Assembly: GCA_947259165.1 (NCBI GenBank)
Contig: CAMYKY010000018.1
Location: forward strand, 27,363-64,443
Origin: an uncultured Acidobacteriota bacterium
GTDB taxonomy: Bacteria; Acidobacteriota; Vicinamibacteria; Marinacidobacterales; SMYC01
DNA length: 37,081 nt
Direction of reading: 5' to 3'
In this document: piece after piece, positions 1,502 through 37,081 of the stretch
How the letters are laid out: the number at the start of each line of letters is the position of its first letter
Numbering within the stretch: position 1 is the stretch's first letter
The notes under the pieces: generated by a model
What the model saw: the letters and a program-made list of their open reading frames with translations, nothing else
Databases searched by the model: none
What the model was told of the DNA's origin: nothing
Program-made: the position numbers and the translations under genes

Positions 1502-2170
1502 TCAAGCTCGTGCACCGCGTCGGGAAAAGCGATTGAAGATTGCGTCGAAGGCGAGCTGGACGTCGTCCTCTCGTAGAAAGATGGAGAACTCGGTCGCGGT
1601 GGATGCGATCTCGATGACGTTGATGTCTTGAAGCGCGATCTCCTCCAGGAGTTGGAACAAAATACCTTTGACCTTCAAGTAACGTTTATCGAAGGCGACG
1701 CTCACCGAGGCGAGGTCCTCATGGAGGATACGCGGAGGTGCCGTGAGGGCACTCGTGAGAAGTCGAAGATTCTCGGCCTCGACGATGACCGTGACCTCGC
1801 GCAGGCCCTCGGTCACGGTCATGAACCCGCTCTTGGAGTGGATGGCGTTGAAGACGCGGTTGAGCTCTCGGTGGCTCGTAGGGGATTTTGCCACCGTGGC
1901 CGCGCACAAGCCCGATTGGATGTTGACCTGGTCGAGAACGAGTTGGTCGCGTCGCGACTGGGATTGCGGCGACCGGGCCAGCTTTTTCTGAAGCCTCGAC
2001 AGGTTCATTAAAACGGCGGCGTCGGTCACTTCCTTCTTCGTCTGTGCCTCGATACTCGGCCTCAGGAACCGCGCTACCTTAGTAAGGTTGAGAAGTCCGT
2101 GATAGAAGCCGAATCGGAGCGCTTGGTGGGTGTCGACGATGTTCTCGATTGCTTCAGAAATTCGTAGCAT
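1502..2170 (-). CDS. ACT-domain protein, candidate amino-acid-responsive regulator of the lysW operon
   Basis: The protein has 222 residues. The N-terminal ~70 residues (SEAIENIVDTHQALRFGFYH, then NLTKVARFLRPSIE and VTDAAVLMNLSRLQKKL) look like a conserved helical, possibly DNA-binding, module that I recall from small bacterial ACT proteins. Residues about 150-215 form an ACT-like beta-alpha-beta-beta-alpha-beta unit (ASVSVAFDKRYLKVKGILFQ, then INVIEIASTATEFSIFL) resembling the regulatory ACT repeats of aspartokinases. It has no kinase domain. It is transcribed divergently from lysW, and the 122-bp gap holds a perfect 16-bp palindrome touching its start codon. From this I infer an autoregulated repressor sensing lysine or a related amino acid. 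The ACT domain is well supported; DNA binding is inference. Confidence 0.7.
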   Translation of the reverse strand: MLRISEAIENIVDTHQALRFGFYHGLLNLTKVARFLRPSIEAQTKKEVTDAAVLMNLSRLQKKLARSPQSQSRRDQLVLDQVNIQSGLCAATVAKSPTSHRELNRVFNAIHSKSGFMTVTEGLREVTVIVEAENLRLLTSALTAPPRILHEDLASVSVAFDKRYLKVKGILFQLLEEIALQDINVIEIASTATEFSIFLREDDVQLAFDAIFNRFSRRGARA

Positions 2171-2292: not shown

Positions 2293-2475
2293 ATGATTGC
2301 AGTACCGACACTCACCGCGTGTCCCGTTTGCGACGGGGACGTTACCATTTCCGAAGACACTGTGGCCAATGAGCTGCTCGATTGCGGAGAATGCGCGAGC
2401 GAGCTCGAAGTCCTCTCCCTCGAACCCCCGAAGCTCGCGGAAGCGCCGGAGGCCGCCGAGGACTGGGGTGAGTAA
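2293..2475 (+). CDS. lysW: Amino-group carrier protein LysW
   Basis: This is a 60-residue acidic protein with two zinc-binding CxxC pairs (CPVC at residues 10-13, CGEC near 31-34) and the diagnostic C-terminal EDWGE. In the carrier-protein pathway, first described in Thermus, the gamma-carboxyl of the last Glu is joined to the alpha-amino group of alpha-aminoadipate (or glutamate). The substrate stays attached while it is phosphorylated, reduced and transaminated. GAGGAGGA at 2276-2283 is a strong ribosome binding site. It is the first gene of the operon, and its stop overlaps the start of lysX by 8 bp. Confidence 0.96.
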
Positions 2476-3337
2476 ACCCGCACTGCGGGTCGCGCTGCTA
2501 CACTCTGTCGTGCGGCGCGAGGAGAAGTTGTTGGCGGCCGCACTCGAGGCGAGAGCCGGGGTCGAGTGCGTCTTGCTCGACGACCGCGAGCTCAGCTTCG
2601 ACCCTGCGCAGGCAGCCGCAGACTACGACGCGGTTTTGGCGCGAAGCGTCTCGAGCTCACGAAACGTCGCGGCGAGGCGCCTGTTTGAAGCTGCTGGCGT
2701 ACGCTGTTTCAATCCCGCATCGGTTGGCGCGGTCTGTAACGACAAGCTCGAGACGTCGCTTGCGCTACTGCGTGCCGGGGTTGCGCATCCTGATCTGAGG
2801 ATTGCGTTTACCGAGGAGTCGGCCCTCGAGGCCATGGAAGAGATGGGTTATCCGGTTGTGCTGAAGCCCATCGTCGGATCGTGGGGGCGGCTCATCGCGC
2901 GCGCGACCGATAGCGACAGTGCGCGAAGCCTTCTCGAGCACAAGGCCGCGCTGCCTGGTTTTCAACACCACATCTTCTACATCCAGCGCTACGTTGAGAA
3001 ACACGGGCGCGATATCCGAAGTTTCGTCGCCGGCGATCGGTGTATCGCTGCGATCGTTCGCACCAGCTCGGACTGGCGAACGAACACGGCGCGCGGCGCA
3101 GTCGCGGCCAACTACCCTGTTTCGCCCGAGCTCGAAGCGGTCTCGGTGGCCGCTGCGCGTGCGGTGGGTGGAGGCATCCTCGCGGTCGATCTCTTCGAGT
3201 CCGAGGACGGATTCCTCGTGAACGAGGTCAACGACACGATGGAGTTCAAAAACAGCATCGAGCCGACGGGCGTCGACATTCCCGACGCGGTTGCGAGATA
3301 CGTCGTTGACCAGCTCCGCGCGGTAAGAGCCGCGTGA
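2468..3337 (+). CDS. lysX: LysW ligase (alpha-aminoadipate--LysW ligase, ATP-grasp)
   Basis: It encodes 289 residues from a GTG at 2468, chosen because it gives the usual family length and an 8-bp overlap with lysW. It is an ATP-grasp enzyme related to RimK that ligates alpha-aminoadipate or glutamate to the C-terminal Glu of LysW using ATP. Landmarks are [15 protein letters not shown] (lid and nucleotide region), [17 protein letters not shown] (ATP-grasp lysine and flexible loop), and the metal-binding [21 protein letters not shown] near the C-terminus. That last segment resembles, from memory, the Thermus LysX end more than archaeal ArgX. This favours lysine over arginine synthesis, but dual function is possible. 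Confidence 0.93.
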
Positions 3338-4374
3338 TCCGAGCCAACGTCGTTGGTGGATCCGGGTACACGGGAGGTGAGCTCCTCCGTTTGTTGCTTT
3401 CGCACCCGGACGTCGCAATTCAGGGGACAAGCTCAGAGAGTCTTGCTGGTAAGCCGGTCGGACGAGCGCACCCGAACCTGCGCGGTGTCACGGAGCTGAA
3501 GTTTCGTCCGCTTGCGGACCTAGAACCTGCCGACATCGCGTTCGTCTGCCTGCCGCACGGTACGGCGTCCGTGCGTTGGGACGAGCTTTTGGGACTTGCG
3601 CCGCAGCTCATCGATCTGAGCGCTGATTTCCGACTCCGCGACGCGGCGGTCTACGAGAAGTATTACAAGCGCGAGCATCCCCGGCCGCCGCTTCTCGAGC
3701 AATTCGTCTATGGCCTTGCCGAGCTGCATCGCGATTCGATCCGCAGCGCAAAGTGGGTCGCCTGCGGAGGCTGTAACGCGACGGCTTCGATCCTCGGACT
3801 CTACCCACTGGCGCGCGCGGGTCTCATGGACACGCACGCGCCGATCGTTGAAGTCAAAGCGGGCTCGAGCGAGGCCGGCCGTCAGGCGTCGGTAACGAGC
3901 CACCATCCCGAGCGATCCGGTTCGGTGCGAGCGTTTGCGCCAACGGGGCATCGTCACACGGCCGAGATTGCTCAGGCGCTCGGAAACGGAACGCCGATGC
4001 CGGTTCATCTCAGCGTGACCTCCGTGGAAATGGTGCGCGGCGCGGTTGCAACGAGCCACGTCTTCCCGAGCCGCGCGGTGAGTGAGCGCGACGTCTGGGG
4101 GATCTACCGGGAAGCGTTTCGCAACGAACCGTTCATGCGGTTGGTGAAAGAAAGCCGCGGCGCGTATCGCTATCCGGACCCGAAACTGCTGGCCGGCACG
4201 AATTTCTGCGACGTCGGCTTCGATCTCGACGTTGACAACGGAAGACTCGTCGTCATCAGCGCCATCGATAACCTCATGAAAGGCGCCGCCGGTCAAGCCG
4301 TTCAGTGCATGAACTTAATGAACGGGCTCGACGAAACCACCGGCCTGAGCTTTCCCGGTCTCCATCCGTCGTAA
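3334..4374 (+). CDS. lysY: LysW-aminoadipyl phosphate reductase (ArgC-like)
   Basis: The 346-residue NADPH-dependent reductase converts the LysW-linked acyl phosphate to the semialdehyde. The N-terminal [14 protein letters not shown] (from residue 8) is the dinucleotide-binding loop; [10 protein letters not shown] places the catalytic Cys at 147. HRHTAEI and the C-terminal [13 protein letters not shown] are the other ArgC/LysY signatures. The GTG start overlaps the lysX stop by 4 bp (GTGA), so translation is coupled. Family identity with ArgC/LysY is certain; LysY is chosen because of the lysW neighbourhood. Confidence 0.93.
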
Positions 4375-4409
4375 AAGCTCGACCTCGGAGGGGGATATTA
4401 GCTTGTTTG

Positions 4410-4506
4410 ACACCAAGGCACGAAGACACGAAGGACATCACCCAGTGGACCAGGACCATTCCGCTCTCCGTGAATTCCTCCGTGGCTCTGTGTCTCCGTG
4501 GTGAAA
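4410..4506. repeat. Intergenic palindromic element, CACGGAG/CCTCCGTG family (copy 2, inside the lysine operon)
   Basis: The right arm (4477-4506) reads CTCCGTGGCTCTGTGTCTCC then GTGGTGAAAA, the same sequence class as the copies at 1388 and 22231. The left arm (4410-4434) reads CACCAAGGCACGAAGACACG, a diverged complement. The element fills the only sizeable gap of the operon, between lysY and the amidotransferase gene. It ends 4 bp before that gene's ATG, where no clear Shine-Dalgarno sequence is present. Confidence 0.65.
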
Positions 4507-4510
4507 AGCG

Positions 4511-5137
4511 ATGTGTCGGTTCCTCATGATGCGGGGGCAGCAGTCTTTCGAGGTTGCGCCGGTGCTCGAATCGTTTCGGAAGATTTGCCACGATAGTCGA
4601 GAGTATCAGGGGCACGGGTGGGGAGCGACCTGGCGTTCAGGCGGCAGTTGGGCGCGTTATCGGTCGCTGTCGCCGATTTGGGAGGACGACGCGGCGCTTG
4701 CTACCGACGTCGATTTTCTAGTGGTTCACGCGCGAAGCGCTTTCCGCGACGAAGGCATCGCGATCGAGAACAACATGCCCTTCTATCGTGGCGAACGAGT
4801 CTTCGTTTTCAATGGCGAGCTACAGGGTGTACGCCTGCGAGTACCGGGGCGCATCGGGGCCGAAAAAGTATTTCATCTCATTCAAGAGCGGGACGAAGGG
4901 GATCTCGACGCGGCGCTGGCGTCTGCGGATCGATTGCTCGTATCGAAGAGTGAGCGGGTGCGCGCCATGAACATCGCGCTGACCGAAGGCGAACAAATTT
5001 ACGCAAGCTGCCGCTACGACGAGTCACCTGACTACTTCACGTTGCACTACCGCGAAGGCGACCTCGCGGCGGTTTGTTCGGAGCCTCTGGACGAGAGCTT
5101 TGTGCCGATGGCGAACGGCGAGCGACGCGTGATCTGA
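4511..5137 (+). CDS. Class II glutamine amidotransferase-like Ntn hydrolase, candidate LysW-lysine releasing enzyme
   Basis: The 208-residue protein starts Met-Cys, so Cys2 becomes the N-terminal nucleophile after Met removal, as in class II amidotransferases. Other active-site landmarks are present: HAR (73-75), NNMPF (87-91) and FNGEL (100-104, oxyanion Asn/Gly). No synthase domain is attached. It resembles the stand-alone YafJ/EgtC group. EgtC is known to hydrolyse a gamma-glutamyl amide in ergothioneine synthesis. Here the gene sits between lysY and lysZ, one base before lysZ, in an operon without lysK. LysW-gamma-lysine is itself a gamma-glutamyl amide, so I infer it may release the product from the carrier. 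Alternative: an unrelated glutaminase. Confidence 0.8.
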   Translation: MCRFLMMRGQQSFEVAPVLESFRKICHDSREYQGHGWGATWRSGGSWARYRSLSPIWEDDAALATDVDFLVVHARSAFRDEGIAIENNMPFYRGERVFVFNGELQGVRLRVPGRIGAEKVFHLIQERDEGDLDAALASADRLLVSKSERVRAMNIALTEGEQIYASCRYDESPDYFTLHYREGDLAAVCSEPLDESFVPMANGERRVI

Positions 5138-5138
5138 C

Positions 5139-5933
5139 ATGCTACTGGTGAAGGTCGGCGGTGGAGCCTCGATCAATTTGGCCGGGATTGCGCGCGACCT
5201 GGCCTCTGTCGACGAACCCGCTATCGTCGTCCACGGCGCCAATGCTTGTCGTGACGAGCTCGCGGATCGGCTCGGCCAGCCGACGCAAACGATCACGTCG
5301 GCCTCGGGTGTGTCGAGCGTGCTCACGGACCAAGATGCTCTCGACGTTCTGACCATGGCGTATGCAGGGCTGATGAACAAGCGTTTCGTGCAGTTGTGCC
5401 AACAACAAGGAGTCAACGCGATCGGTCTCACTGGAATCGACGGTGCTCTCGTGCGCGGGCGACGCAACGTAGGGATTCGCGTCGAGGAGAACGGGAAGAA
5501 ACGCATCGTGCGCGATCACTCCGGAAAGCCCGAATCGATCAACACGTCGCTGCTACGACTGCTCATCGACGCAGGCTATACACCTTTGCTCACGGTGCCG
5601 ATTCTCGATGAAGAGAGTCGCGCGGTGAACACCGAAAACGACAGCGTGGTTGCGCTGCTGCAAAGAACGCTCGAATCGCGCCGCGTCATCCATCTCATTG
5701 AGGCGCCGGGGCTCTTGGAGGACAGAGACGACCCGACGAGCGTCGTGGGCGAGATGCGTTTTTCGGAGCTCGAGGCTCGGTCGCATTCGACTCACGGCCG
5801 CCTCCAACGCAAGCTCATGGCCTTTGCGGCAATGGCTGCAAGCGGGTGCGAAGAGATTGTGCTCGCGGACGGCCGGAGCGAGGCGCCTCTGAGCGCCGCA
5901 CTTTCTGGCCAGGGAACGAGAATCCGCGCGTGA
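5139..5933 (+). CDS. lysZ: LysW-aminoadipate kinase (ArgB-like)
   Basis: This 264-residue amino-acid-kinase fold protein phosphorylates the side-chain carboxylate of the LysW-bound substrate. The N-terminal LLVKVGGGASIN supplies the phosphate-binding Lys and Gly-rich loop, VVHGANACRDELADRLG is the substrate and ATP loop, and VNTENDSVVALL corresponds to the NxDxxA segment. LQRKLMAFAAMAASG matches the GGMxxKxxAA region but has LQRK instead of GGM. The start follows the amidotransferase stop by one base, and its stop overlaps lysJ (GTGA). The paralogue ArgB would be the alternative; context favours LysZ. Confidence 0.92.
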   Translation: MLLVKVGGGASINLAGIARDLASVDEPAIVVHGANACRDELADRLGQPTQTITSASGVSSVLTDQDALDVLTMAYAGLMNKRFVQLCQQQGVNAIGLTGIDGALVRGRRNVGIRVEENGKKRIVRDHSGKPESINTSLLRLLIDAGYTPLLTVPILDEESRAVNTENDSVVALLQRTLESRRVIHLIEAPGLLEDRDDPTSVVGEMRFSELEARSHSTHGRLQRKLMAFAAMAASGCEEIVLADGRSEAPLSAALSGQGTRIRA

Positions 5934-7078
5934 CGAACCCCTACGAGCTCGACGTTTACGGCAAGAGGGGCATCACCCTCGTGCGCGGGCAGGCAACGCA
6001 CCTCTGGGATGACCAGGGTAACGAGTACCTCGATTGTATGAGCTCTCACGGCGCCGCGATCCTTGGACACGCGCATCCGGCAATCGTCGACGTGTTGACG
6101 TGCCAGGCCGCTCAGCTTGCCTCCGCGCCCGGGTCGTTTCACCATCCAGAAAAGACTCGACTGATGGAGCGCTTGGTGGGGCTGGCACCTCTCGGGCTCG
6201 CTCGCGTCTTCCTCTGCAATTCGGGAACCGAATCCATCGAGGCTGCACTCAAGCTTGCGCGCGCGAGCACGGGCCGCAGCCGCATCGTTGCGGCGAAGCG
6301 CGGCTTCCACGGACGGAGCTTCGGTGCCATGAGTGCGACTTTCGGTCCGAAGCAACATGCCTTGTTCGCCCCGGTTGTGCCTGACGTCGACTTTATTGCC
6401 TACAACAAAACCGAGGGACTCGAAGACGCGCTCGATGATCGCGTCGCCGCGCTCGTGCTCGAGCTCGTTCAGGGCGAGGGCGGCGTCCATCCCGCGGAGG
6501 CCGAGTTCATCGACCAGGCGGCGCAACTGTGTCGTCGCCACGGCATTCTTCTCGTGATCGACGAGGTCCAAACGGGCTTCGGTCGCACCGGCCGCTTGTT
6601 CGCCTGCGAGCACTACGGGCTGACGCCCGACATCTTGTGTGTTGCGAAGGGCCTCGGCGCAGGGTTTCCGATGGGCGCCATCATCGTGCGCGATGGGCTC
6701 GAGTTCCCACCGGGTAGTCACGGTTCGACGTTTGGAGGCAATCCTCTCGCGTGCGCGGTCGCGAACACGGTGCTGGATATCGTCACCGCCGGTGGCTTTT
6801 TGGAGGACGTCGAAGCGAAAGGCGAATACTTCCGAAGCCTACTCGATGGTGAAGTGCGCGGCATCGGTCTGATGGTTGCTATCGAGCTCGGTGAGCGCGC
6901 CCGACCCTATCTCGACCGTTTCGCAAACGCCGGGGTCCTCGCGCTCACCGCGGGCAAGAAGGTGTTGCGGTTTCTGCCTCCGCTCATCATGACGCGCGAC
7001 GAGATCGCGCAGGTCGGCGAAGTGGTACGCGAGGTTCTAAAAGAACCGGTTGTCGCGCGCTCAACCTCGGCGTGCTAG
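5930..7078 (+). CDS. lysJ: LysW-aminoadipate semialdehyde aminotransferase (ArgD-like)
   Basis: The 382-residue class III PLP aminotransferase converts the LysW-bound semialdehyde to LysW-gamma-lysine (or ornithine). Landmarks are CNSGTESIEAALKLAR (97-112), DEVQTGFGRTG (211-221, Asp211 contacts the pyridine nitrogen) and LCVAKGLGAGFPMGA with the Schiff-base Lys240. The GTG start at 5930 overlaps the lysZ stop and leaves out upstream residues that are only lysZ read in another frame. It is the last recognisable gene of the operon. The releasing hydrolase LysK, often found nearby in other bacteria, does not follow. Confidence 0.93.
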   Translation: MTNPYELDVYGKRGITLVRGQATHLWDDQGNEYLDCMSSHGAAILGHAHPAIVDVLTCQAAQLASAPGSFHHPEKTRLMERLVGLAPLGLARVFLCNSGTESIEAALKLARASTGRSRIVAAKRGFHGRSFGAMSATFGPKQHALFAPVVPDVDFIAYNKTEGLEDALDDRVAALVLELVQGEGGVHPAEAEFIDQAAQLCRRHGILLVIDEVQTGFGRTGRLFACEHYGLTPDILCVAKGLGAGFPMGAIIVRDGLEFPPGSHGSTFGGNPLACAVANTVLDIVTAGGFLEDVEAKGEYFRSLLDGEVRGIGLMVAIELGERARPYLDRFANAGVLALTAGKKVLRFLPPLIMTRDEIAQVGEVVREVLKEPVVARSTSAC

Positions 7079-7293: not shown

Positions 7294-7734
7294 ATGTCGC
7301 AGATTTATATGATTCATGAGAACAGGGAGTGGACGGCACCTCTCCAAGTTGAGCTCGAGCGTCTCGGGCTTGCGTACGGAGAGTGGTTTCTTGATCGGGG
7401 CACGGTCGATCTTTCGTCGACGCCTCCTGACGGGGTTTTCTACAACCGGATGAGCGCTTCGTCTCACACACGGGGGCATCGCTTCGCCGCGGAGTACACC
7501 GGGGCGGTTTTGGCGTGGCTCGAGCGCCACGGCAGAGTGGTCGTCAACAACTCCCGGGCGATGCAGCTGGAGATTAGCAAGGCGGCGCAGTATGCGGCGT
7601 TGAACACTCACGGTATTGCTACACCGGCGACGGTCGCAGCCATTGGGCTGCCTGCGATCCTGACGGACGCGATCCTAGCGCCCTTCGCCGAGGAGGCACG
7701 CGTCGTCGAGCTCCGCCGAAGCAGGGGCCTCTAG
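7294..7734 (+). pseudogene. Truncated RimK-like ATP-grasp ligase, N-terminal part only
   Basis: The 146-residue reading frame starts at an ATG and contains the pre-ATP-grasp domain of an alpha-L-glutamate-ligase-like protein: MIHENREWTAPLQVELERLG, then GVFYNRMSASSHTRGHR and ISKAAQYAALNTHGIATPAT. Full-length relatives, as I recall them, run to about 300 residues with a KPxxGGxG loop and a metal-binding Asp/Glu/Asn triad. None of that is here: after residue ~115 the sequence becomes unrelated and stops. No frame downstream restores the missing half, so a deletion rather than a frameshift is likely. It follows the lysine operon after a 215-bp spacer in which I see only an imperfect CGGCATCTAG/CGGCATCCAG duplication. 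Confidence 0.7.
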
Positions 7735-10000: not shown

Positions 10001-11224
10001 GTGGAAGGAACGAAGCGAAGGGAGTTTCTGGGGCTTGCCGGTGCCGCGTCGGCGGCGGTCGTGCTTACCGGGAAGCTCGCGCGTGGGTCGGTGCAGCGCC
10101 AGTCCCTGGAAGGTTTCGACGTCGCCGATCAGATCGACCCTTGGATCGAGCTCGACATGGACGCGCTAGCCTCGAACGTCAGCGAGGTGCGAAAACGAAT
10201 CGGCGAGATTCCCATCATGGCGGTGGTGAAATGTAATGCCTACGGTCATGGCGATGTCGAGATCGCAACCGCACTCCAGCGCGACAGCAACGTCCGCCGT
10301 TTCATGGTGGTGAAGACGCGGGAAGCCATATCGTTGAGGCAAAACGGTATCGATGGAATGATCTTGAACGCGGGGCCTTTCAGTCGTCGGGAGCTCCCCG
10401 CGCTCATCGGTCACGATATCTCGCAGTCGGTGTACTCCGACGCCGTCGAGGTCTTGTCCGAGGAGGCGGAGAGGCTCGGGAAACCGGTGAAGGTCCACAT
10501 CTGCGTAGATACGGGCATGGGCCGGGTCGGTGTTCCCCACAGCGAGGCTCTAGCCTTCATTGAAAAGGTCGCGGGGCTGCCGAGCATCGAGATTGAAGGT
10601 ACGTTCACGGCCATGACCGAGGACGACGATTTCAACCCGATTCAAATCGAGCGCATCGAAGGAATCTGTGCTGCGGCCGCGAGCCGGGGCATCACGACCG
10701 GCGTTCGCCACGCGGCGTCGACCGCCGAAGTCGATCGGTACCCCTATGCATGGTTGGACATGGTGCGACCTGGAAACTGTCTCGTCGGACTCGAGCCCGA
10801 ACGTCAGACCCACATGGCCATCCGTCCGGTCATGTCCTTCAAGACCCGCGTCGTCTACGTCAAGACGCTGCAGGCGGGGGAGGCGCTGTCGTACCACCGC
10901 GCTTACAAGATCCACAAAGAGACTCGGATCGCGACTCTTCCGTGCGGCTATACCGACGGTTATCCGCCCGTGGTGACGAACTTGGCGGACGTGCTCATCC
11001 GTGGACGGCGTCACCCGGTTATCGCGCCGATTACCGCGAACCACATGATGGTCGACGTCACGAGCTCTCCGGAGGTCGCGATCGGTGACGAGGTTGTCCT
11101 GTGGGGGAGCCAGGGCGACGAGCGGATCACCAAAGTAGAGCTGGAAAAGCTCGCCCCTCGGGCGACGAACGCCTACCGGATGGCAGCGCGTACGCGCACG
11201 TACCTGCCGCGGGTACCGATCTAG
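10001..11224 (+). CDS. Alanine racemase-family enzyme with twin-arginine signal
   Basis: The 407-residue fold-type III PLP racemase starts at a GTG preceded by AGGGAGGAG. The N-terminus KRREFLGLAGAASAAVVLTG is a twin-arginine export signal, which is unusual for the essential cytoplasmic Alr. Lys77 in VVKCNAYGHG binds PLP (usual motif VKADAYGHG), and SYHRAYK (about residue 298) holds the second catalytic Tyr. CGYTDGYPP and the C-terminal beta domain are complete. Periplasmic broad-spectrum amino-acid racemases are known, though they usually carry Sec signals. It is likely co-expressed with the upstream serine hydrolase. Confidence 0.88.
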   Translation: MEGTKRREFLGLAGAASAAVVLTGKLARGSVQRQSLEGFDVADQIDPWIELDMDALASNVSEVRKRIGEIPIMAVVKCNAYGHGDVEIATALQRDSNVRRFMVVKTREAISLRQNGIDGMILNAGPFSRRELPALIGHDISQSVYSDAVEVLSEEAERLGKPVKVHICVDTGMGRVGVPHSEALAFIEKVAGLPSIEIEGTFTAMTEDDDFNPIQIERIEGICAAAASRGITTGVRHAASTAEVDRYPYAWLDMVRPGNCLVGLEPERQTHMAIRPVMSFKTRVVYVKTLQAGEALSYHRAYKIHKETRIATLPCGYTDGYPPVVTNLADVLIRGRRHPVIAPITANHMMVDVTSSPEVAIGDEVVLWGSQGDERITKVELEKLAPRATNAYRMAARTRTYLPRVPI

Positions 11225-22230: not shown

Positions 22231-22289
22231 TTTTTTACCACGGAGCCACGGAGAATCTACCTTTGCCTTGCTCCATGTCTCCGTGGTGC
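22231..22289. repeat. Intergenic palindromic element, CACGGAG/CCTCCGTG family (copy 3)
   Basis: ACCACGGAG (22237-22245) and CTCCGTGGT (22279-22287) are perfect 9-bp inverted arms, with a second imperfect CCACGGAG next to the left arm. It fills the gap between the HisC-like gene and the decayed Rieske gene. Confidence 0.75.
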
Positions 22290-22301: not shown

Positions 22302-23474
22302 CTACGCGACCGCCTTCATGTTGACCGAGAGCAGCTCGGCGAAGATTTCGGTGGCGCGTTTCATTTCGTCCATCGTGCCGATGGTGACGCGGGCATGGTT
22401 TTCGTAGAGCTTCGACCCTCCGCCGATGCGGACGCCGGCCTCGCGGCACGCTTTTTTGAAGTCTTCGTTCGATTGTCGGATGTCGATGTAGACGAAGTTG
22501 GCTTGCGATTCAGTGTCTTCGTACCCGGCATCGTGGAACCACTTTCGCGTGAAGTCCCGCACTGTTTTGTTGCGCGCGATTTCTCGGCTCAGGTGCTCGT
22601 CGTTTGCGAGCGCTGCGACGACGCCGACACGTCCCGGGAGGTTCGTGAACATGTCCATCCCGCGCCAATCAGACATCTTCTTGATGTTGTCCGTGTGGCC
22701 CACGGCGAAGCCGAAACGGAGCCCGGCCATACCGTAAGCCTTGGAGAACGTGCGGGCGACGATGACATTAGGGTGCTCGGCGGCCAGGGAAAGGAGCGAC
22801 TCGTGCTCGGGGTCGGTGACGTATTCATGGTAAGCCTCGTCGACGAGGATGATCGCGTTCGGAGAGCGTTTGACGACATCGTCGACGAACGCTCGCATAT
22901 CGCGTCCTGTATGTACGGTGGCGGTCGGGTTGTTCGGATTGCACACATACACGATTCCGGCGTTCGCGCTTTCGCTCAGCATGGCGTCGAGGTCGACGTA
23001 CATGGAAGCGTCCAGCGGAACCCGTGTGGCCGGATGGCCGATGAGCTCGGCAAAACGAGCACACGTCCCGAAAGTCGGATCGGGACTCACGACGCCTCGG
23101 TCTTTCGATGTGAACATCGTCGCCGAAACCGTCAAGATCTGGGACGAGCCCAAACCGATGAACACGTTGTCGGGTTCGACACCATGCTTTTTGGCGAGGA
23201 TCTCCACCGTCTGATTGATTTGCGCGAAGTGGTATCGTCCGGCGCCCGCGCCGTCGGGTCCGAGGATGCCGCGCATCGCATCGACGACGTGCTGGCCGGG
23301 GCCGAGCGGGTTCTCGTTGCTGCTGAGGATGAGGTCGGTGGTTTCCTCAGACGCGAACGGCGTCTCACTTTCGGAGCGCGTCGAGGCCCACGCTTCGTGC
23401 CCGCGAGCGCTGATGAATGCGGCGGCGCCGCCTGCGCCCAATTGCCTTACGAAGGATCGGCGTGAAATCGTCAT
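22302..23474 (-). CDS. HisC-like PLP aminotransferase with twin-arginine signal (copy A)
   Basis: The 390-residue class I/II aminotransferase has a twin-arginine signal (SRRSFVRQLGAGGAAAFISA). The core has NENPLGP, VCNPNNPTATV, VDEAYHEYV and the Schiff-base lysine in ARTFSKAYGMAGLR, with the C-terminal RVTIGTMDEM arginine that binds substrate carboxylate or phosphate. These are histidinol-phosphate/aromatic aminotransferase signatures. Export makes a role in histidine synthesis unlikely. It overlaps copy B by ATGA, so the two are co-translated. Confidence 0.88.
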   Translation of the reverse strand: MTISRRSFVRQLGAGGAAAFISARGHEAWASTRSESETPFASEETTDLILSSNENPLGPGQHVVDAMRGILGPDGAGAGRYHFAQINQTVEILAKKHGVEPDNVFIGLGSSQILTVSATMFTSKDRGVVSPDPTFGTCARFAELIGHPATRVPLDASMYVDLDAMLSESANAGIVYVCNPNNPTATVHTGRDMRAFVDDVVKRSPNAIILVDEAYHEYVTDPEHESLLSLAAEHPNVIVARTFSKAYGMAGLRFGFAVGHTDNIKKMSDWRGMDMFTNLPGRVGVVAALANDEHLSREIARNKTVRDFTRKWFHDAGYEDTESQANFVYIDIRQSNEDFKKACREAGVRIGGGSKLYENHARVTIGTMDEMKRATEIFAELLSVNMKAVA

Positions 23475-24673
23475 TGCGCACCTCCGGCGCCTGCGTCGCT
23501 AGACTGCACACCGAGCACCTTGGCGAAGACAGCGGTAGCGCGTTGCATCTCATCCATAGTCCCAATCGATACGCGGCAATGAGTTTTCTCCATCGGAGGA
23601 AAATCTCTGGCGACGAAGACTTTGTCCTTCGCGCAGGCCTCGCGGAACTGCTTCGCGGGTTCGCCGAGGTTAACGAAAAGGAAGTTGGTTTGCGTGTCCG
23701 TCGACTGGTAGCCCGCACCTTCGAAGAAATCGAGGGTGAAACGGCGAACTTTCTCGTTCCGCTCACGCTCGCGCTCGATGTGTTTCCGATCGCGAAGCGA
23801 AGCGACGCCGGCTGCTATGGCGAGGACGTTCGCGTTTGCCGATAGCGAGTAACGACGAAGTTGTTCGATCGTCTCCGGGTGTCCGCAACCGAAGCCCAGT
23901 CTCAAGCCCGCCATTCCATAAGCCTTCGAGAACGTGCGGGCGACGGCGACATTCTTCCGAGTTGTCGCGAGGGGTATCATCGTTTTGTGCGCCGGGTCGG
24001 TAACGTAGTCGTGATAGGCCTCGTCGACGAGGATGAGCGCCTCAGGTGCCGTCTTCTGGACTTCAACGATGAAGCTTTCGATGGTCGACGCCGGGTGGAT
24101 CGTCGCCGTCGGGTTGTTGGGGTTGCAGACGTAGACCATTCCGGCCCCGCGTGCAGCCTCCGCCATGCCCGACAGATCGAGCCTCAGCTCGTCGTCGAGT
24201 GGAATCGGTCGGTACTCGTTTCCGAGCTTTTTCGACTCGGTAACGGGAGAGCCGTAGGACAGTAGGCCAGTGACGAGGTGTCTCTCCGGACTACAGAAGA
24301 TCCGAACGCCGTTTCTCAGAATCTCGCTCGAGCCGGCGCCAACAACGAAGTGCTCGGGCTTGGCATCGAATCTCTCCGCAAGCGTATCCATGAGCTCACG
24401 ATTGCCGACCCTGCTATTGAACGGGTAGCGCTTCGATTGGTCGAGCTCCGAGACGAGCGCGTCGAGCGCCCGCTTGCCAGGTCCGAGAGGGTTCTCGTTA
24501 CCCCCGATCCGGACCTCGTCTGCGCCCGGAGGGGAGAGCGTCGGATAAGCTCCCGTCTCCCACGCTGCCGTAGCCTCCTCGAAGCCCCGTGCTGCGACGA
24601 GAGCCGATAGAACCGGACTCGCAACCGCGCTCGCCCCAAGACCCCCAAAAAAAGCTCGCCTAGATAACGCCAT
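23471..24673 (-). CDS. HisC-like PLP aminotransferase with twin-arginine signal (copy B)
   Basis: The 400-residue protein is a clear paralogue of the next gene, sharing VYVCNPNNPTAT, ILVDEAYHxYVTDPxH, VARTFSKAYGMAGLR and VSIGTMDEMxRAT. The start ATG 24673 (GGAGG upstream) places the twin-arginine motif SRRAFFGGLGASAVASPVL at the N-terminus; a TTG 12 bp earlier is less likely. Core residues for PLP binding are intact, so both copies look active. Tandem duplication followed by divergence is inferred. Substrate unknown. Confidence 0.88.
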   Translation of the reverse strand: MALSRRAFFGGLGASAVASPVLSALVAARGFEEATAAWETGAYPTLSPPGADEVRIGGNENPLGPGKRALDALVSELDQSKRYPFNSRVGNRELMDTLAERFDAKPEHFVVGAGSSEILRNGVRIFCSPERHLVTGLLSYGSPVTESKKLGNEYRPIPLDDELRLDLSGMAEAARGAGMVYVCNPNNPTATIHPASTIESFIVEVQKTAPEALILVDEAYHDYVTDPAHKTMIPLATTRKNVAVARTFSKAYGMAGLRLGFGCGHPETIEQLRRYSLSANANVLAIAAGVASLRDRKHIERERERNEKVRRFTLDFFEGAGYQSTDTQTNFLFVNLGEPAKQFREACAKDKVFVARDFPPMEKTHCRVSIGTMDEMQRATAVFAKVLGVQSSDAGAGGAQ

Positions 24674-24727
24674 CCTAACCTCCAATAACGGCTTGCCTCG
24701 CCGTAGCCTCTAAGGGGCGAAGGCGGG

Positions 24728-26657: not shown

Positions 26658-28145
26658 TTAACTCGTTCCCTCGAGATCGAGAAACTTGGAGACGAGGTCG
26701 ACTCCGTGGGTCATGTCGAATTTTTTGTAAGCCATGGCCACCATCATGTTGGGATCCCCCGAGTGGAGCCGTTCATACAGCTGCTGTCGGCTTCCGTACG
26801 CGTCACCGGTGAGCTCCCACGCGAGCTTGCACAATTTGTAGCGGTCCATGGGAGAGGCGTCCTTGCCGCGCATGTAGACGTCGAGGTGTTTTCTGAGATC
26901 GGGTGCGTCCCAATCTTCCGCGTTCGGCAAGAAGATTAGTGAGCTCGTCCCTATGTGCTCGACGAGCTCCACGAATCGCTCCGAGATCATCGTGACCAAC
27001 GAGCGGCGCTCGGGCCTGGTTGCCGGCTTGTAGTGTCCGCCCGGAGTCGCCACACAGTTTTTTTCTGCGTCGTCCAAACTGGAGCGAAGGAGTGCCAAGT
27101 AGGTACACATTTCCCCGAGGGCGGCGACAACGTGCGGTCGTGTCTCCATACCGGAGGTTTTCGCCAGGAGATGCCCGACCGTGATCAGGACCTCCATCCT
27201 GAGCTGGGTCAAGAGCGTTCCCGCGTAAGCGGCCCAGGTCATGACGTTGCCGCGGAAGAGCCGGTTGGCGGCGAGCGGTTCGCGGTAGAGGAAGATTCTC
27301 TCCCAGGGGACGAACACGTCGTCGAAGATGACGAGAGAATCGACTTCATCGAAGCGGGACGACACCGGGTGGTCTAGAGGATTGCGGCCACCGAAAACCT
27401 CGCGCGCGACTTGTTTCAGTCTAGGCGCATTGACCGGAATCGTGAACCAAATCGCGAACTCGGGCTCGTCTTCTTGAAAGAAATAGGTTGGCGACACGAG
27501 AATCTCGTTCGAGAAGAGGCCGAGAGTATTGAAGCGAGCACCACGCACCACGATGCCATCGTCGCGTTCCTTGACGACCCGCACGCACCGGTCTGGATCC
27601 TGGGAGGGGCGAAGCGACTTGTCCATGCAGGGATCGTGAAGCGCGTGGGACAGGCATAGATCGTTGTCGCGTGCGTAGCTCAAATAGGTCTCGGTGTTCT
27701 TGGCGAGGTCGGGGTTGAGCTTGGCGAGCTCGTCGCGGATATCGTAGTAGCCGACGACCATCGACGCGCAGAAGTCGGGAAGCCGCCCGCACATCCCGAA
27801 GACCTCACGGACCCACACTTCGGTGTTGGCGCGACGCAGCAAGAGCTCTTCCGGCTTCGTCGGCAGGTAGTACGAGTACGACGCACGAAGGCCGTTGTCT
27901 TGCTCGTAGGTCATCACGTCCCGGGTCGCGGGGTCGTGTTGCATGTCGTAGATACGCGCGAGGCTTCGCGCCATCTCGCGAAGCTCGGGGTGGGTGGTGA
28001 CATCTTTCACCCGCTCGCCCCGGTACCAGACCTCGCGGTCGTCTCGCAGGCTTTCCAAGTAACGGGCGCCGGTCATCGCGCCTTGCGCGCGGGTCTCGGC
28101 GATGGGGGGAATGCGCTTTTCAGTCGAAGGGCTGGGCTCGTTCAC
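26658..28145 (-). CDS. HpaB-family FADH2-dependent phenol monooxygenase
   Basis: The 495-residue protein starts at GTG 28145 with GGAG 6 bp upstream; a TTG at 28157 is an alternative. It is homologous to 4-hydroxyphenylacetate 3-hydroxylase (HpaB) and chlorophenol monooxygenases: GARYLESLRDDREVWYRGER, HALHDPCMDKSL, RGARFNTLGLFSNEILV and VFVPWERIFLY. Such enzymes hydroxylate phenols ortho to the hydroxyl using reduced flavin from a partner reductase, which is not encoded here. The product, a catechol, would suit the LigB-type dioxygenase two genes upstream. Confidence 0.9.
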   Translation of the reverse strand: MNEPSPSTEKRIPPIAETRAQGAMTGARYLESLRDDREVWYRGERVKDVTTHPELREMARSLARIYDMQHDPATRDVMTYEQDNGLRASYSYYLPTKPEELLLRRANTEVWVREVFGMCGRLPDFCASMVVGYYDIRDELAKLNPDLAKNTETYLSYARDNDLCLSHALHDPCMDKSLRPSQDPDRCVRVVKERDDGIVVRGARFNTLGLFSNEILVSPTYFFQEDEPEFAIWFTIPVNAPRLKQVAREVFGGRNPLDHPVSSRFDEVDSLVIFDDVFVPWERIFLYREPLAANRLFRGNVMTWAAYAGTLLTQLRMEVLITVGHLLAKTSGMETRPHVVAALGEMCTYLALLRSSLDDAEKNCVATPGGHYKPATRPERRSLVTMISERFVELVEHIGTSSLIFLPNAEDWDAPDLRKHLDVYMRGKDASPMDRYKLCKLAWELTGDAYGSRQQLYERLHSGDPNMMVAMAYKKFDMTHGVDLVSKFLDLEGTS

Positions 28146-28157
28146 GCGGTGCTCCAA

Positions 28158-28952
28158 CTAGAGAAAATTCGTTGGCCAGATGACCGTTCGCCACATGTGG
28201 GCGACGGGGCTTCCATCGAAGCCGAGGCCTTCCTTGGGTTGTTTGAAGTTTCGTCCGATGATGTCGATGAACAAATCGAGCGTCGGGTTTTTGTCAGGGT
28301 CGAAAGCGTAGAGGTCGTTGATCGTGATCTGGCGCGCCGTCATGTACCACCTGTGGTTCTTCGCGTACTCGGCCGCTTCTTTCACATAGGGCTCCGGCTC
28401 GTAGTCCTTGCCGAAATAGCGGATGTAGGACGCCGGGTATTCATAGCCGACCGAAGGATCAGGGAAAAAGCGCAGGGCTTGGTGATAGCGGATAGCCCAG
28501 CTCACTCGCTCGGACACATACGGCTCGAGGAACTGGGAGCCCCAGTAGCCGTGGTCATTTCGCGCCAGGGCGAAAACGCCAATGTCATGGAGAAGGCAAG
28601 CCAAAACGGTCTCTTCGTCGAGGCCCGATTCGAGAGCGAGCGCGCCGCTTTGGAGCAAATGTCTGGCGGGGGCGAAGCGTTTTTCGAAGAAATCGACGAG
28701 TGTCGGCTTTTCAGGCATCAAGGCGAGCCTGGCGTCGTTTCCCATTTGCTTGAGATGCCCGCGCGTGGCCTCGAGCTCCGCTTGGATCTCTTCCTCTGGG
28801 CGTGCGAAGTTGCAAAGGCGCGAGCGCACGATCGGTCGCGCGTCGAGCTCCGCAATCATGCTTTCTTCGAGAGCTTCGGCCTGCGCCGAAAACGACAAGG
28901 CTTTGGCCGCGCCCATGGCGCCCGCGGCCGTGAGGAATGTCCTGCGGTTCAT
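28158..28952 (-). CDS. PhnZ-like HD-domain protein with twin-arginine signal
   Basis: The 264-residue protein starts at ATG 28952 (GGAGG 6 bp upstream), with a twin-arginine signal MNRRTFLTAAGAMGAAKALS. The HD core has RHLLQSGALALESG (His98) and LLHDIG (His122-Asp123), exactly 24 residues apart as in the PhnZ oxygenase I recall, then His134 and His157. PhnZ-type HD proteins are mixed-valent di-iron oxygenases rather than phosphatases. Here the context is aromatic catabolism, so an oxidative step is plausible; a phosphohydrolase role is not excluded. Confidence 0.7.
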   Translation of the reverse strand: MNRRTFLTAAGAMGAAKALSFSAQAEALEESMIAELDARPIVRSRLCNFARPEEEIQAELEATRGHLKQMGNDARLALMPEKPTLVDFFEKRFAPARHLLQSGALALESGLDEETVLACLLHDIGVFALARNDHGYWGSQFLEPYVSERVSWAIRYHQALRFFPDPSVGYEYPASYIRYFGKDYEPEPYVKEAAEYAKNHRWYMTARQITINDLYAFDPDKNPTLDLFIDIIGRNFKQPKEGLGFDGSPVAHMWRTVIWPTNFL

Positions 28953-28965
28953 AGAATCCTCCGAA

Positions 28966-29976
28966 TTACTGCCACACCGCGAAGGCCATGGCGTTTCCAG
29001 TGCCGGCCTCCGACCGATAGCAGGGAACATAGTCGATGAGGTTCATTTTGAGATCGGTGGTGGCGAGCGCGCCGATACCCGTGATCCAATTCTTGGTCTC
29101 GGACGTTCCCGAGCGGAAGAAGTGGCTCGGGATCGCTGCCAGTCGTTCGGTGTCGTTCGATTTCATGGCGGATAACACGTCGTCGTCGAACGTCTCGTCG
29201 AGGACAAAGTGACTGAGTCCGCCGGACATGATGATGCCGACGCGCACGTCCTCGTCCCACGACGCGATGGCCTTCGCCATCGCCTTGCCCAGTGCGATAC
29301 ACCGGGACGTCTTCGGCTGGTTCGGCGGGAAGAACGTGTTCAACACGACGGGAACCGCGGGGATGGGCATGTCGTTCATGATGCGCCGATAGAGAAATCC
29401 GTAGGCGTGGGGCAGACTTGCCCGTCCGCTCGGCCCATCCGGTAGCTTCTTCATCGTGGCGATATCGAAGTCGTCGTCGGTGAGTGACCGGACGAGATGT
29501 TCGCCGAGCTCGGCAACGCAAGGGTAGGTGACCGACTCTTCGGGGACGTTGGCCCAATGGGCGATGGACAGCCCCGGTTTCAACCGCGCGAGAGCAGCTT
29601 CATCCATTGCAATGTTGTCGATGCTGTCGCCGTGAACGATGCTGAATGGCGGCGTCAGGGACTCTTTGAAGATCTCCCGTTGATCGTTTCCGATGAGGAC
29701 GAGCACCTCCGGCGACGCTGCCTTCAATTCGTCGGCGAGTCGCACGATCGCTTTTTGACATTGAGCGTGTCGGCGCTCGCACTCCTCGAGGCTCGATTGC
29801 TGCTTCAGGTTTTCGGGCGCGCGCAGCTCGACCAGCTCGTCGAACGTGTAAGTCCCCCCGCGGAATGCGTGCTCCCGGTTTTGCCGGTCCGCCTTGACGC
29901 GAAGAGTCCACTTGTCCGGCGGGGTCGACAGCAGGGGGCCATGCGAGCTCGCAAGTCCGAAACTGATGTGCGCCAT
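28966..29976 (-). CDS. LigB-type class III extradiol ring-cleavage dioxygenase
   Basis: The 336-residue protein resembles the protocatechuate 4,5-dioxygenase beta subunit (LigB). The N-terminal ISFGLASSHGPLL places His12 as an Fe(II) ligand. Later come LVLIGNDQREIF, HAYGFLYRRIM and GIIMSGGLSHFVLDE (catalytic His). The alpha subunit LigA is not visible, as in the single-subunit members of the family. Its location between the HD protein and the binding-protein-like gene, with an HpaB hydroxylase nearby, supports ring cleavage of a hydroxylated aromatic. Confidence 0.88.
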   Translation of the reverse strand: MAHISFGLASSHGPLLSTPPDKWTLRVKADRQNREHAFRGGTYTFDELVELRAPENLKQQSSLEECERRHAQCQKAIVRLADELKAASPEVLVLIGNDQREIFKESLTPPFSIVHGDSIDNIAMDEAALARLKPGLSIAHWANVPEESVTYPCVAELGEHLVRSLTDDDFDIATMKKLPDGPSGRASLPHAYGFLYRRIMNDMPIPAVPVVLNTFFPPNQPKTSRCIALGKAMAKAIASWDEDVRVGIIMSGGLSHFVLDETFDDDVLSAMKSNDTERLAAIPSHFFRSGTSETKNWITGIGALATTDLKMNLIDYVPCYRSEAGTGNAMAFAVWQ

Positions 29977-29982
29977 ATTGGA

Positions 29983-30867
29983 TCAGGTGGCCGTCGCCAC
30001 TGATTCTTCATAAGTGCCGTGTCCGACCTTGTCTTCGTCAAAGACTTTCCAATCCTCGACCCACTTGTGGGTCTCGTCGAACATTTCCTTGGTGTACGGA
30101 TCGAAGACGATCCGCTCGCCCGGCCCGAACAAGCGCGTGTCCATTTGGTCGCGGAACCGCTCGGGAAACTCGTTCTGGTAATAGTGGGTGTATTTCTCGA
30201 GCCTGAGATCGATGTCGGCTTGCGCGCGCTTCAAAGCACGGTAGCATTTCCGGACATCTTCCTCGTCGACGTCGTCCGAGATCATCGCGGCAACCATGAA
30301 CGTCGTATCCAACACTTTGCGGTAGCCTAGCTGCTCAGCGAAATACAGGGGGCCGCCGAAAAGATTCGCCGCTGGGACTTCGCCGTCGAGAAAAAGCTCG
30401 AGCCGCTGGAACAGCATGCCGCCGAAGTGAAGCTGGATCGCATCGCGCTCGAGGAACGGCTCGAGCGCCTGAATCGTCGAGTAGTGGCTTCCGGACTGAA
30501 AACCAACGGTCACTGGGACGCCGGCGAGATCTTCCGGGTTCTTGATATCCGAGTCGGGCGGCACGTAGATGCCGCCGGGAGTGACCGAATACGCTTCACC
30601 CCAGAGACGACCGTGGCCGTTGGATGCGGCCATGTTGACCGTCCAGTGACAGGCCGAGCTGACATCGCATGCGCGCCCTTTGCCTTCGAACGTTTGATAA
30701 GCACCGCTGCGCTTTTCGGGCGGTAGCTCATCGGCCGTCTTGATTGCCGCGACGTGCGTCTTGACGTCGTAGAACTCGTAGTCGAGCCCTTCCTGACTAA
30801 AGTAGTCCTTCTCTTCCGCAACCCACTCTTGAAGCCTCATGTGGGGCGCGATCACGAACTTGCCCAT
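29983..30867 (-). CDS. Periplasmic-binding-protein-fold protein (NMT1/THI5-like) without signal peptide
   Basis: The 294-residue protein begins MGKFVIAPHM directly after GGAGG, without a signal or lipobox. The fold signatures are EGLDYEFYD, IKNPEDLAGVPVTVGFQSGS and EVPAANLFGGPLYFAEQLGY, like substrate-binding proteins of nitrate/taurine/thiamine-precursor uptake and 4,5-dihydroxyphthalate decarboxylase. With no export signal and no permease or ATPase genes, a cytoplasmic enzyme or sensor (for instance a decarboxylase) fits better than transport. It is the first gene of the catabolic operon after the regulator. Confidence 0.7.
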   Translation of the reverse strand: MGKFVIAPHMRLQEWVAEEKDYFSQEGLDYEFYDVKTHVAAIKTADELPPEKRSGAYQTFEGKGRACDVSSACHWTVNMAASNGHGRLWGEAYSVTPGGIYVPPDSDIKNPEDLAGVPVTVGFQSGSHYSTIQALEPFLERDAIQLHFGGMLFQRLELFLDGEVPAANLFGGPLYFAEQLGYRKVLDTTFMVAAMISDDVDEEDVRKCYRALKRAQADIDLRLEKYTHYYQNEFPERFRDQMDTRLFGPGERIVFDPYTKEMFDETHKWVEDWKVFDEDKVGHGTYEESVATAT

Positions 30868-36453: not shown

Positions 36454-36472
36454 CGGACGAGGATTTTGGGTG

Positions 36473-37081
36473 ATGAAGCTACTTTTGTTGGCACTGCTTG
36501 CGACTCAAGCTCGACTACTCGACGTGGCACTCGATGACCCGGGTGTCGTCGAGGCGCTCCAGTATGTCGAGGGTCACGAAGCAGAGACCGCGGCGTTTCT
36601 TGCGGAGGTGGGTGCGATTCGGTCGCCCTCGGGTGAGGAGCGTGAGCGGGCCGAGCGCGTTGCCGCACGTATGGAGGCGATTGGTCTGACGCGCGTCCGT
36701 GTCGATGACAGCCCGAATGCGATTGGGGTCATTCCTGGCAGGTCCGGGCGCGCGCTCGTTTTCGTCGGCACGCTCGATGACCTCGCTCCGGTTGCGGAGC
36801 ACCAGAAGACGTCGGGGCCTCCCCGCATTGTCGGCGATCGCGTCGTTGGGCCGGGCACGCACACGTCATCGACAACCGTGTCGATGTTGACCGCTGCCGA
36901 GGCTATCGTCGCGTCCAGGCTCGTTCCCGAACACGACCTCATTTTCGCAGCGGTCGCGCAAGAAGAGACTGGGCTCGTTGGGATGAAGAATCTCTATCGC
37001 GACCTCGGCGATCGCGCGCTGGCCTACGTCGATGTTCTCGGTGACGGCCGGCGCATCAGCTACGGGGCCATCGTGATCCAC
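36473..37081 (+). CDS. M20-family peptidase-like protein with atypical metal site, cut by window end
   Basis: The visible 203 residues begin with a short signal (MKLLLLALLATQA). The M20 catalytic base motif AQEETGLVGMKNL (Gln163-Glu164-Glu165) is present. The usual first zinc ligand segment GHxDTV reads GTLDDL (99-104), with His replaced, and the bridging-Asp loop reads GPGTHTSS. At least two canonical zinc ligands are therefore absent, although His130 could partly compensate. It follows the DUF6282 gene by 19 bp. It could be an inactive or altered peptidase; the rest lies outside the window. Confidence 0.7.
   Translation, partial: MKLLLLALLATQARLLDVALDDPGVVEALQYVEGHEAETAAFLAEVGAIRSPSGEERERAERVAARMEAIGLTRVRVDDSPNAIGVIPGRSGRALVFVGTLDDLAPVAEHQKTSGPPRIVGDRVVGPGTHTSSTTVSMLTAAEAIVASRLVPEHDLIFAAVAQEETGLVGMKNLYRDLGDRALAYVDVLGDGRRISYGAIVIH

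Follow-up and report, generated by a model that had tools for sequence, protein, structure and literature searches.

In the LysW-mediated aminoadipate pathway, the last step, which frees lysine from the C-terminal Glu of the carrier protein LysW, is usually carried out by LysK, a [LysW]-lysine hydrolase and M20 zinc peptidase (TIGR01902/NF003367). In Caldithrix abyssi, LysWXZYJ and Hcs are encoded in one locus, and the rest of the pathway proteins were left unassigned, with non-orthologous displacement suspected and the enzyme unnamed (PMC5317091). Two other enzymes are of interest here: EgtC of ergothioneine synthesis (4ZFJ/4ZFK/4ZFL), which hydrolyses a γ-glutamyl amide by a catalytic Cys2, and Dop, which deamidates PupQ to PupE and cleaves the Pup conjugate (PMC8599861). 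This paper discusses a LysW operon of an uncultured Acidobacteriota bacterium, found in a stretch of 37,081 nucleotides (the window: bases 27363-64443 of contig 18, CAMYKY010000018.1, of a 5.0 Mb, 84%-complete draft genome), in which a class II glutamine amidotransferase-like protein, hereafter GAT, stands between lysY and lysZ. Genomic and structural comparisons strongly support GAT as a putative non-orthologous replacement of LysK, with a probability of roughly 0.84.

The operon has the order lysW-lysX-lysY-[GAT]-lysZ-lysJ and occupies positions 2293-7078 of the window on the plus strand (Table 1). An initial annotation of this DNA had described lysW, X, Y, Z and J as complete and overlapping, with an extra gene inserted and LysK missing. 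Open reading frames (ORFs) and family scans agree as to the completeness and the extra gene, and the overlap is found at lysW/lysX, lysX/lysY and lysZ/lysJ, where the GTG of lysJ at 5930 lies over the stop codon of lysZ, but not at GAT, which begins 136 bases after lysY and is separated from lysZ by one base. The window's LysW scores slightly under the cut-off of TIGR01206 (48.2 against 53.2 bits) and keeps its four Cys as the zinc-ribbon pairs CPVC and CGEC, ending in EDWGE. The absence of LysK from the window also holds: the sole M20-like ORF (36470-37081), which has a signal-like N-terminus and runs off the contig, matches no NCBIfam family and was rejected as LysK. The rest of the genome, which is 84% complete, likewise yielded no bona fide LysK, since all 21 M20 matches are under the TIGR01902 cut-off of 163.1 bits; the best of them, at 95.9 bits against the LysK model, was rejected as an ArgE/DapE-type protein.

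The same operon is borne by contigs of two further genomes of the phylum Acidobacteriota (G005 and G254), and a scan limited to a single genome for each species gave 247 relatives of GAT, the best 80 of which were examined with flanks of up to 10 kb. All 80 adjoin LysW-pathway genes (at the minimum lysY, or lysZ and lysJ), and no LysK was seen in these flanks. The commonest order is lysW-(hcs)-X-Y-GAT-Z-J; in three loci (L049, L050 and L247) GAT lies 3' of lysJ, which is the slot of lysK in the LysK operons L250-L253. The hosts include Acidobacteriota, Gemmatimonadota, Calditrichota, KSB1, Ignavibacteria, Gammaproteobacteria, Deltaproteobacteria and Phycisphaerae and, among the archaea, a Woesearchaeote and Archaeon GW2011_AR15. 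On the closed chromosome of AR15 the LysK model gave no M20 match, and the cluster includes genes resembling those for homocitrate synthase, homoaconitase and homoisocitrate dehydrogenase. As the arrangement is conserved in dozens of genomes, a chance association is excluded. Three Gemmatimonadota loci with GAT operons (L241, L243 and L244, in genomes G531, G568 and G470) have a divergent LysX, and LysZ was not detected between GAT and LysJ in them; either the kinase evolves rapidly there or the pathway is a variant one.

Because the incompleteness of the window's genome limits what the absence of LysK can mean, relatives were surveyed, and 297 Acidobacteriota genomes were searched alike for GAT, LysX and LysK. 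Among the 37 with LysX over the cut-off, 24 have a LysK that is likewise over its cut-off, 11 have GAT, two have neither and none has both; ten of the 11 GAT proteins were found at E<1e-30, and that of G062 was weaker yet lies within the operon. Counted by family, LysK occurs in seven and GAT in ten. In Gemmatimonadota, 39 genomes with LysX divide into three with LysK and 36 with GAT, with none having both or neither. Three of these 36 genomes, which had seemed to be without GAT next to lysX, proved to have it elsewhere, either at a distance from lysX or on a different contig. The LysX-bearing genomes of both phyla together thus comprise 27 with LysK only, 47 with GAT only, none with both and two with neither. 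Furthermore, a more sensitive GAT profile search of 11 of the genomes with LysK and LysX and of two more LysK genomes gave no match, and no LysK over the cut-off was found in twelve near-complete GAT genomes. In both phyla surveyed, Acidobacteriota and Gemmatimonadota, GAT and LysK therefore exclude each other strictly, and this, with the lack of LysK in the window's genome, supports the replacement of LysK that the initial annotation had put forward. The other sampled members of the window's class with a LysX over the cut-off have LysK, and the LysX proteins nearest to the window's are those of Sulfidibacter and Acanthopleuribacter, both of which have GAT; the GAT operon in the window's genome may have been acquired horizontally.

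GAT is a stand-alone protein with Cys2, HAR (73-75), NNMPF (87-91) and FNGEL (100-104) all present, as had been read initially. Among family models it matches only those of class II amidotransferases, with weak matches to Pfam GATase_4/GATase_6, and it scores 46.4 bits with the EgtC model TIGR03442, under the cut-off of 218.65. GAT did not reach the TIGR01902 cut-off for LysK-type M20 proteins. A PDB search with the single GAT sequence gave no match, and a profile search matched EgtC and 3MDN. An AlphaFold model was built from a ten-sequence alignment, with a mean predicted local distance difference test score (pLDDT) of 92.1 and a predicted template-modelling score (pTM) of 0.90. The model has 59 PDB matches at E<=0.001 by Foldseek, the best being EgtC 4ZFL (1.2e-11, TM 0.81); EgtC structures, including a complex with the natural substrate, fill the 13 top places and are followed by PurF and GlmS. 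The fold of the predicted structure thus agrees with the comparison with EgtC made earlier.

Conservation was examined in 88 aligned family members, and Cys2, Arg3, His73, Arg75, Asn101, Gly102, Gly116, Lys119, Asn154 and Tyr175 are invariant in all of them. The Asp of the canonical (S/T)D(S/T)E motif is replaced by Gly116 in 88/88 GATs, so that the motif becomes GAxK; in the profile alignment Gly116 faces the Asp of GSTDSEVLF in 3MDN. Four canonical paralogues of the same phylum, encoded outside the operon, retain TDSE. In GlmS and PurF, the Asp of TDSE contacts the α-amino group of glutamine and an Arg contacts the α-carboxylate. Retention of the Arg together with loss of the Asp would be expected for a glutamyl substrate with a free α-carboxylate and a blocked α-amino group. 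The C-terminal Glu of LysW, the α-amino group of which is in a peptide bond and the α-carboxylate of which is free, fits the Gly116 substitution.

In the proposed mechanism, GAT would complete the LysW-mediated aminoadipate pathway as a cysteine N-terminal nucleophile (Ntn) hydrolase, cleaving the γ-glutamyl amide that joins lysine to the C-terminal Glu of LysW and so giving free lysine and regenerated LysW. Cys2 would attack the γ-carbonyl, Arg75 would hold the free α-carboxylate of the C-terminal Glu and Asn101/Gly102 would form the oxyanion hole, while Gly116 in place of the canonical Asp would give the LysW backbone room where a free α-amino group would otherwise bind.

In addition, the C-terminus of LysW varies in GAT loci: among 64 such loci, 32 end in EDWGE and 32 in EDWGQ. 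In the 20 LysK-type operons on the LysX tree the end is always E, and the experimentally studied LysW also ends in E (PMC10433800). Four Gln-ended LysW proteins occur in Gemmatimonadota (L206, L209, L236 and L239), where loci were gathered via LysX with GAT status ignored, and all four are accompanied by GAT. On the LysX tree the Glu/Gln state requires 12 changes, every one of them among GAT rows. Confinement of Gln to GAT gives an uncorrected Fisher p of 1.8e-4 (27/63 GAT against 0/20 LysK in the sampled rows) and p of about 0.09 after a rough branch-length correction, the LysK-only share of tree length being 18%; the link between Gln-ended LysW and GAT is no more than suggestive. Since a C-terminal Gln of LysW cannot be activated by LysX, deamidation is needed first, and because deamidation is an ordinary reaction of the glutaminase fold, GAT is proposed as the LysW deamidase as well. 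In lineages with Gln-ended LysW, GAT would probably first deamidate it to Glu, which LysX would then load. Such a dual role is a reasonable extension of the replacement of LysK, somewhat more probable than its denial; the broader proposal that one widespread and so far unrecognized family of cysteine Ntn hydrolases both deamidates LysW-Gln and cleaves LysW-γ-lysine, replacing LysK across a large part of the bacteria and in some archaea, may be favoured to a like degree. The LysW-Gln variants and the lost Asp are points that go beyond the initial annotation.

As to the product, the specificity signature is Asn-Thr in SaLysX and Gly-Phe in SaArgX (PMC10433800), and in an alignment the corresponding stretch is NEVNHTMEF in Thermus-type LysX (3VPD/1UC8) and NELNDVPEF in the Sulfolobus ArgX structure. 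The window's LysX has GSWGR and the aminoadipate-type (AAA-type) NEVNDTMEF; its relatives have GSWGR and nearly always NEVN(Y/H/D)TME(F/Y). Lysine is the likely product of this operon because the signature of its LysX is of the aminoadipate type. Four points weigh against the reading of GAT as the lysine-releasing replacement of LysK. In the window's genome no protein passed the cut-off for homocitrate synthase, and the incompleteness of this genome means that a LysK could be missed in this organism alone. Two LysX-bearing Acidobacteriota have neither GAT nor LysK: in one (G124) the locus stops at a contig edge, and in the other (G071) lysY is followed by an unrelated oxidoreductase. Moreover, GAT and LysK operon types are mostly inherited by clade, the LysX tree needing just three changes between them, at least two of which are forced by well supported branches; as the changes are few, the genome counts overstate independence. 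With regard to the first of these points, ArgJ was not found in the window's genome either, so ornithine is a conceivable product in this organism, and GAT might release from LysW a different product, such as ornithine destined for arginine, or both ornithine and lysine. LysW pathways are able to make ornithine (PMC10433800) and many relatives are without hcs adjoining the operon; however, the xTMEF of the LysX here and in nearly all relatives is of the aminoadipate type, in several relatives, AR15 among them, homocitrate synthase and enzymes acting after it are encoded in the cluster, and the window's genome is incomplete. A product other than lysine is thus unlikely, and this alternative differs in product and not in mechanism, so that its probability overlaps that of the replacement of LysK.

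The remaining explanations concern what GAT does. It could be a maturase that only deamidates the C-terminal Gln of LysW, the normal glutaminase reaction of its fold, while another M20 or unknown hydrolase frees lysine; LysW-Gln is encoded in half of the GAT operons and in none of the LysK operons tested. However, the other half, the window included, encode LysW-Glu and keep GAT without LysK, and AR15 is without an M20 candidate by the LysK model, so a maturase alone is improbable. Still less credible is a glutaminase subunit feeding ammonia to an operon enzyme: the fold and catalytic residues are those of class II amidotransferases, but the pathway has no ammonia-using step (the reaction of LysJ is a transamination, and what LysX ligates is an amino acid), an Asp with a part in recognizing free glutamine is Gly in all 88 aligned members, and the mutual exclusion of GAT and LysK would be left unexplained. 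That exclusion also speaks against a repair enzyme stripping mis-loaded or stalled intermediates off LysW, which would share the bond chemistry and the operon linkage but should co-occur with LysK, as it does in no genome; such a role is very improbable.

Table 1. Genes of the LysW operon and the divergent neighbouring gene (positions in the window)
Feature	Position	Strand	Description
lysW	2293-2475	+	Carrier protein, 60 aa; PF21344 2.7e-14, above cut-off
lysX	2468-3337 (GTG start)	+	LysW-aminoadipate ligase (ATP-grasp); TIGR02144 312.5 bits, cut-off 275.6
lysY	3334-4374 (GTG start)	+	LysW-aminoadipyl-phosphate reductase, ArgC homologue; TIGR01850 386 bits, over cut-off
GAT	4511-5137	+	208 aa; candidate LysW-γ-lysine hydrolase, class II glutamine-amidotransferase/Ntn fold
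lysZ	5139-5933	+	LysW-aminoadipate kinase; NF010659 238.9 bits, over cut-off
lysJ	5930-7078 (GTG start)	+	LysW-aminoadipate-semialdehyde aminotransferase, ArgD-type; TIGR00707 402 bits, cut-off 410; NF042418 378 bits
Divergent 222-aa gene	1502-2170	-	Beside lysW; no Pfam or NCBIfam match; homologues beside the operon in L042, L043, L045, L049, L050, L111, L112, L115, L117, L130, L175, L184, L235, L236, L239, L241, L243, L244 and L247

Beside lysW, the divergent 222-aa gene recurs by GAT-type LysW operons in Acidobacteriota, Gemmatimonadota, Calditrichia and two archaea and was not detected in four LysK-type loci annotated at length; its product is possibly a regulator. The spacer between lysY and GAT (4375-4510) contains an intergenic repeat of the CTCCGTGGTGAA type, which recurs in the window, including at 1389-1466 and 22234-22245, with four matches at one mismatch or fewer against 0.25 expected. 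On the 3' side of lysJ, a 146-aa ORF (7294-7734) is similar to RimK-type ATP-grasp ligases over their N-terminal portion only and looks like a fragment or degenerate gene. Further away (22302-24685 and 10001-11224), a pair of neighbouring HisC-like aminotransferases and a protein resembling alanine racemase have apparent twin-arginine translocation (Tat)-type signals (RRSFVRQLGAGG, RRAFFGGLGASA and RREFLGLAGAAS), which suggests exported pyridoxal phosphate enzymes. Inspection by eye also gave an apparent aromatic-degradation cluster (26658-30867) with an HpaB-like monooxygenase, a LigB-like dioxygenase and a substrate-binding protein, beside a GntR-like regulator and a major facilitator superfamily transporter.

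No earlier report of the GAT enzyme was found in the open-access papers searched. If the proposed role is true, it would fill the last lysine step in Acidobacteriota, Gemmatimonadota, Calditrichota, Ignavibacteria, Gammaproteobacteria, Phycisphaerae and some archaea, a step that genome reconstructions of such organisms, for example that of Caldithrix abyssi, left open. It would also add protein-carrier deconjugation to a fold known mainly for reactions on free glutamine, and would explain carriers with a C-terminal Gln, which are not loadable as encoded.

Compared with the known systems, GAT would share with LysK the reaction and the pathway step, but the two are unrelated in fold and mechanism, LysK being a metal hydrolase and GAT a cysteine Ntn hydrolase. 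EgtC is the nearest in fold and has the same catalytic Cys2, but it is only about 22% identical to GAT and belongs to a different operon; its substrate is a small molecule with a free α-amino group, unlike the presumed LysW substrate of GAT, and by the profile alignment it has VDSA where GAT has IGAE. GlmS, PurF and SPO2029 (3MDN) share the fold, the N-terminal Cys, the Arg and the Asn-Gly oxyanion hole, whereas GAT differs from class II amidotransferases in standing alone, in being tied to a carrier operon and in having GAxK for TDSE. The Dop system resembles that of GAT in that the carriers end in Gln or Glu according to species and are loaded at the γ-carboxyl group in an ATP-dependent manner, and the deamidation and deconjugation by one enzyme that are demonstrated for Dop (PMC8599861) may apply to GAT. 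However, Dop is related to glutamine synthetase and needs ATP to form an active-site phosphate, and GAT, with its Ntn fold, is without homology to Dop/PafA. GAT is therefore proposed as a functional counterpart of Dop for LysW, by analogy of role and not by ancestry.

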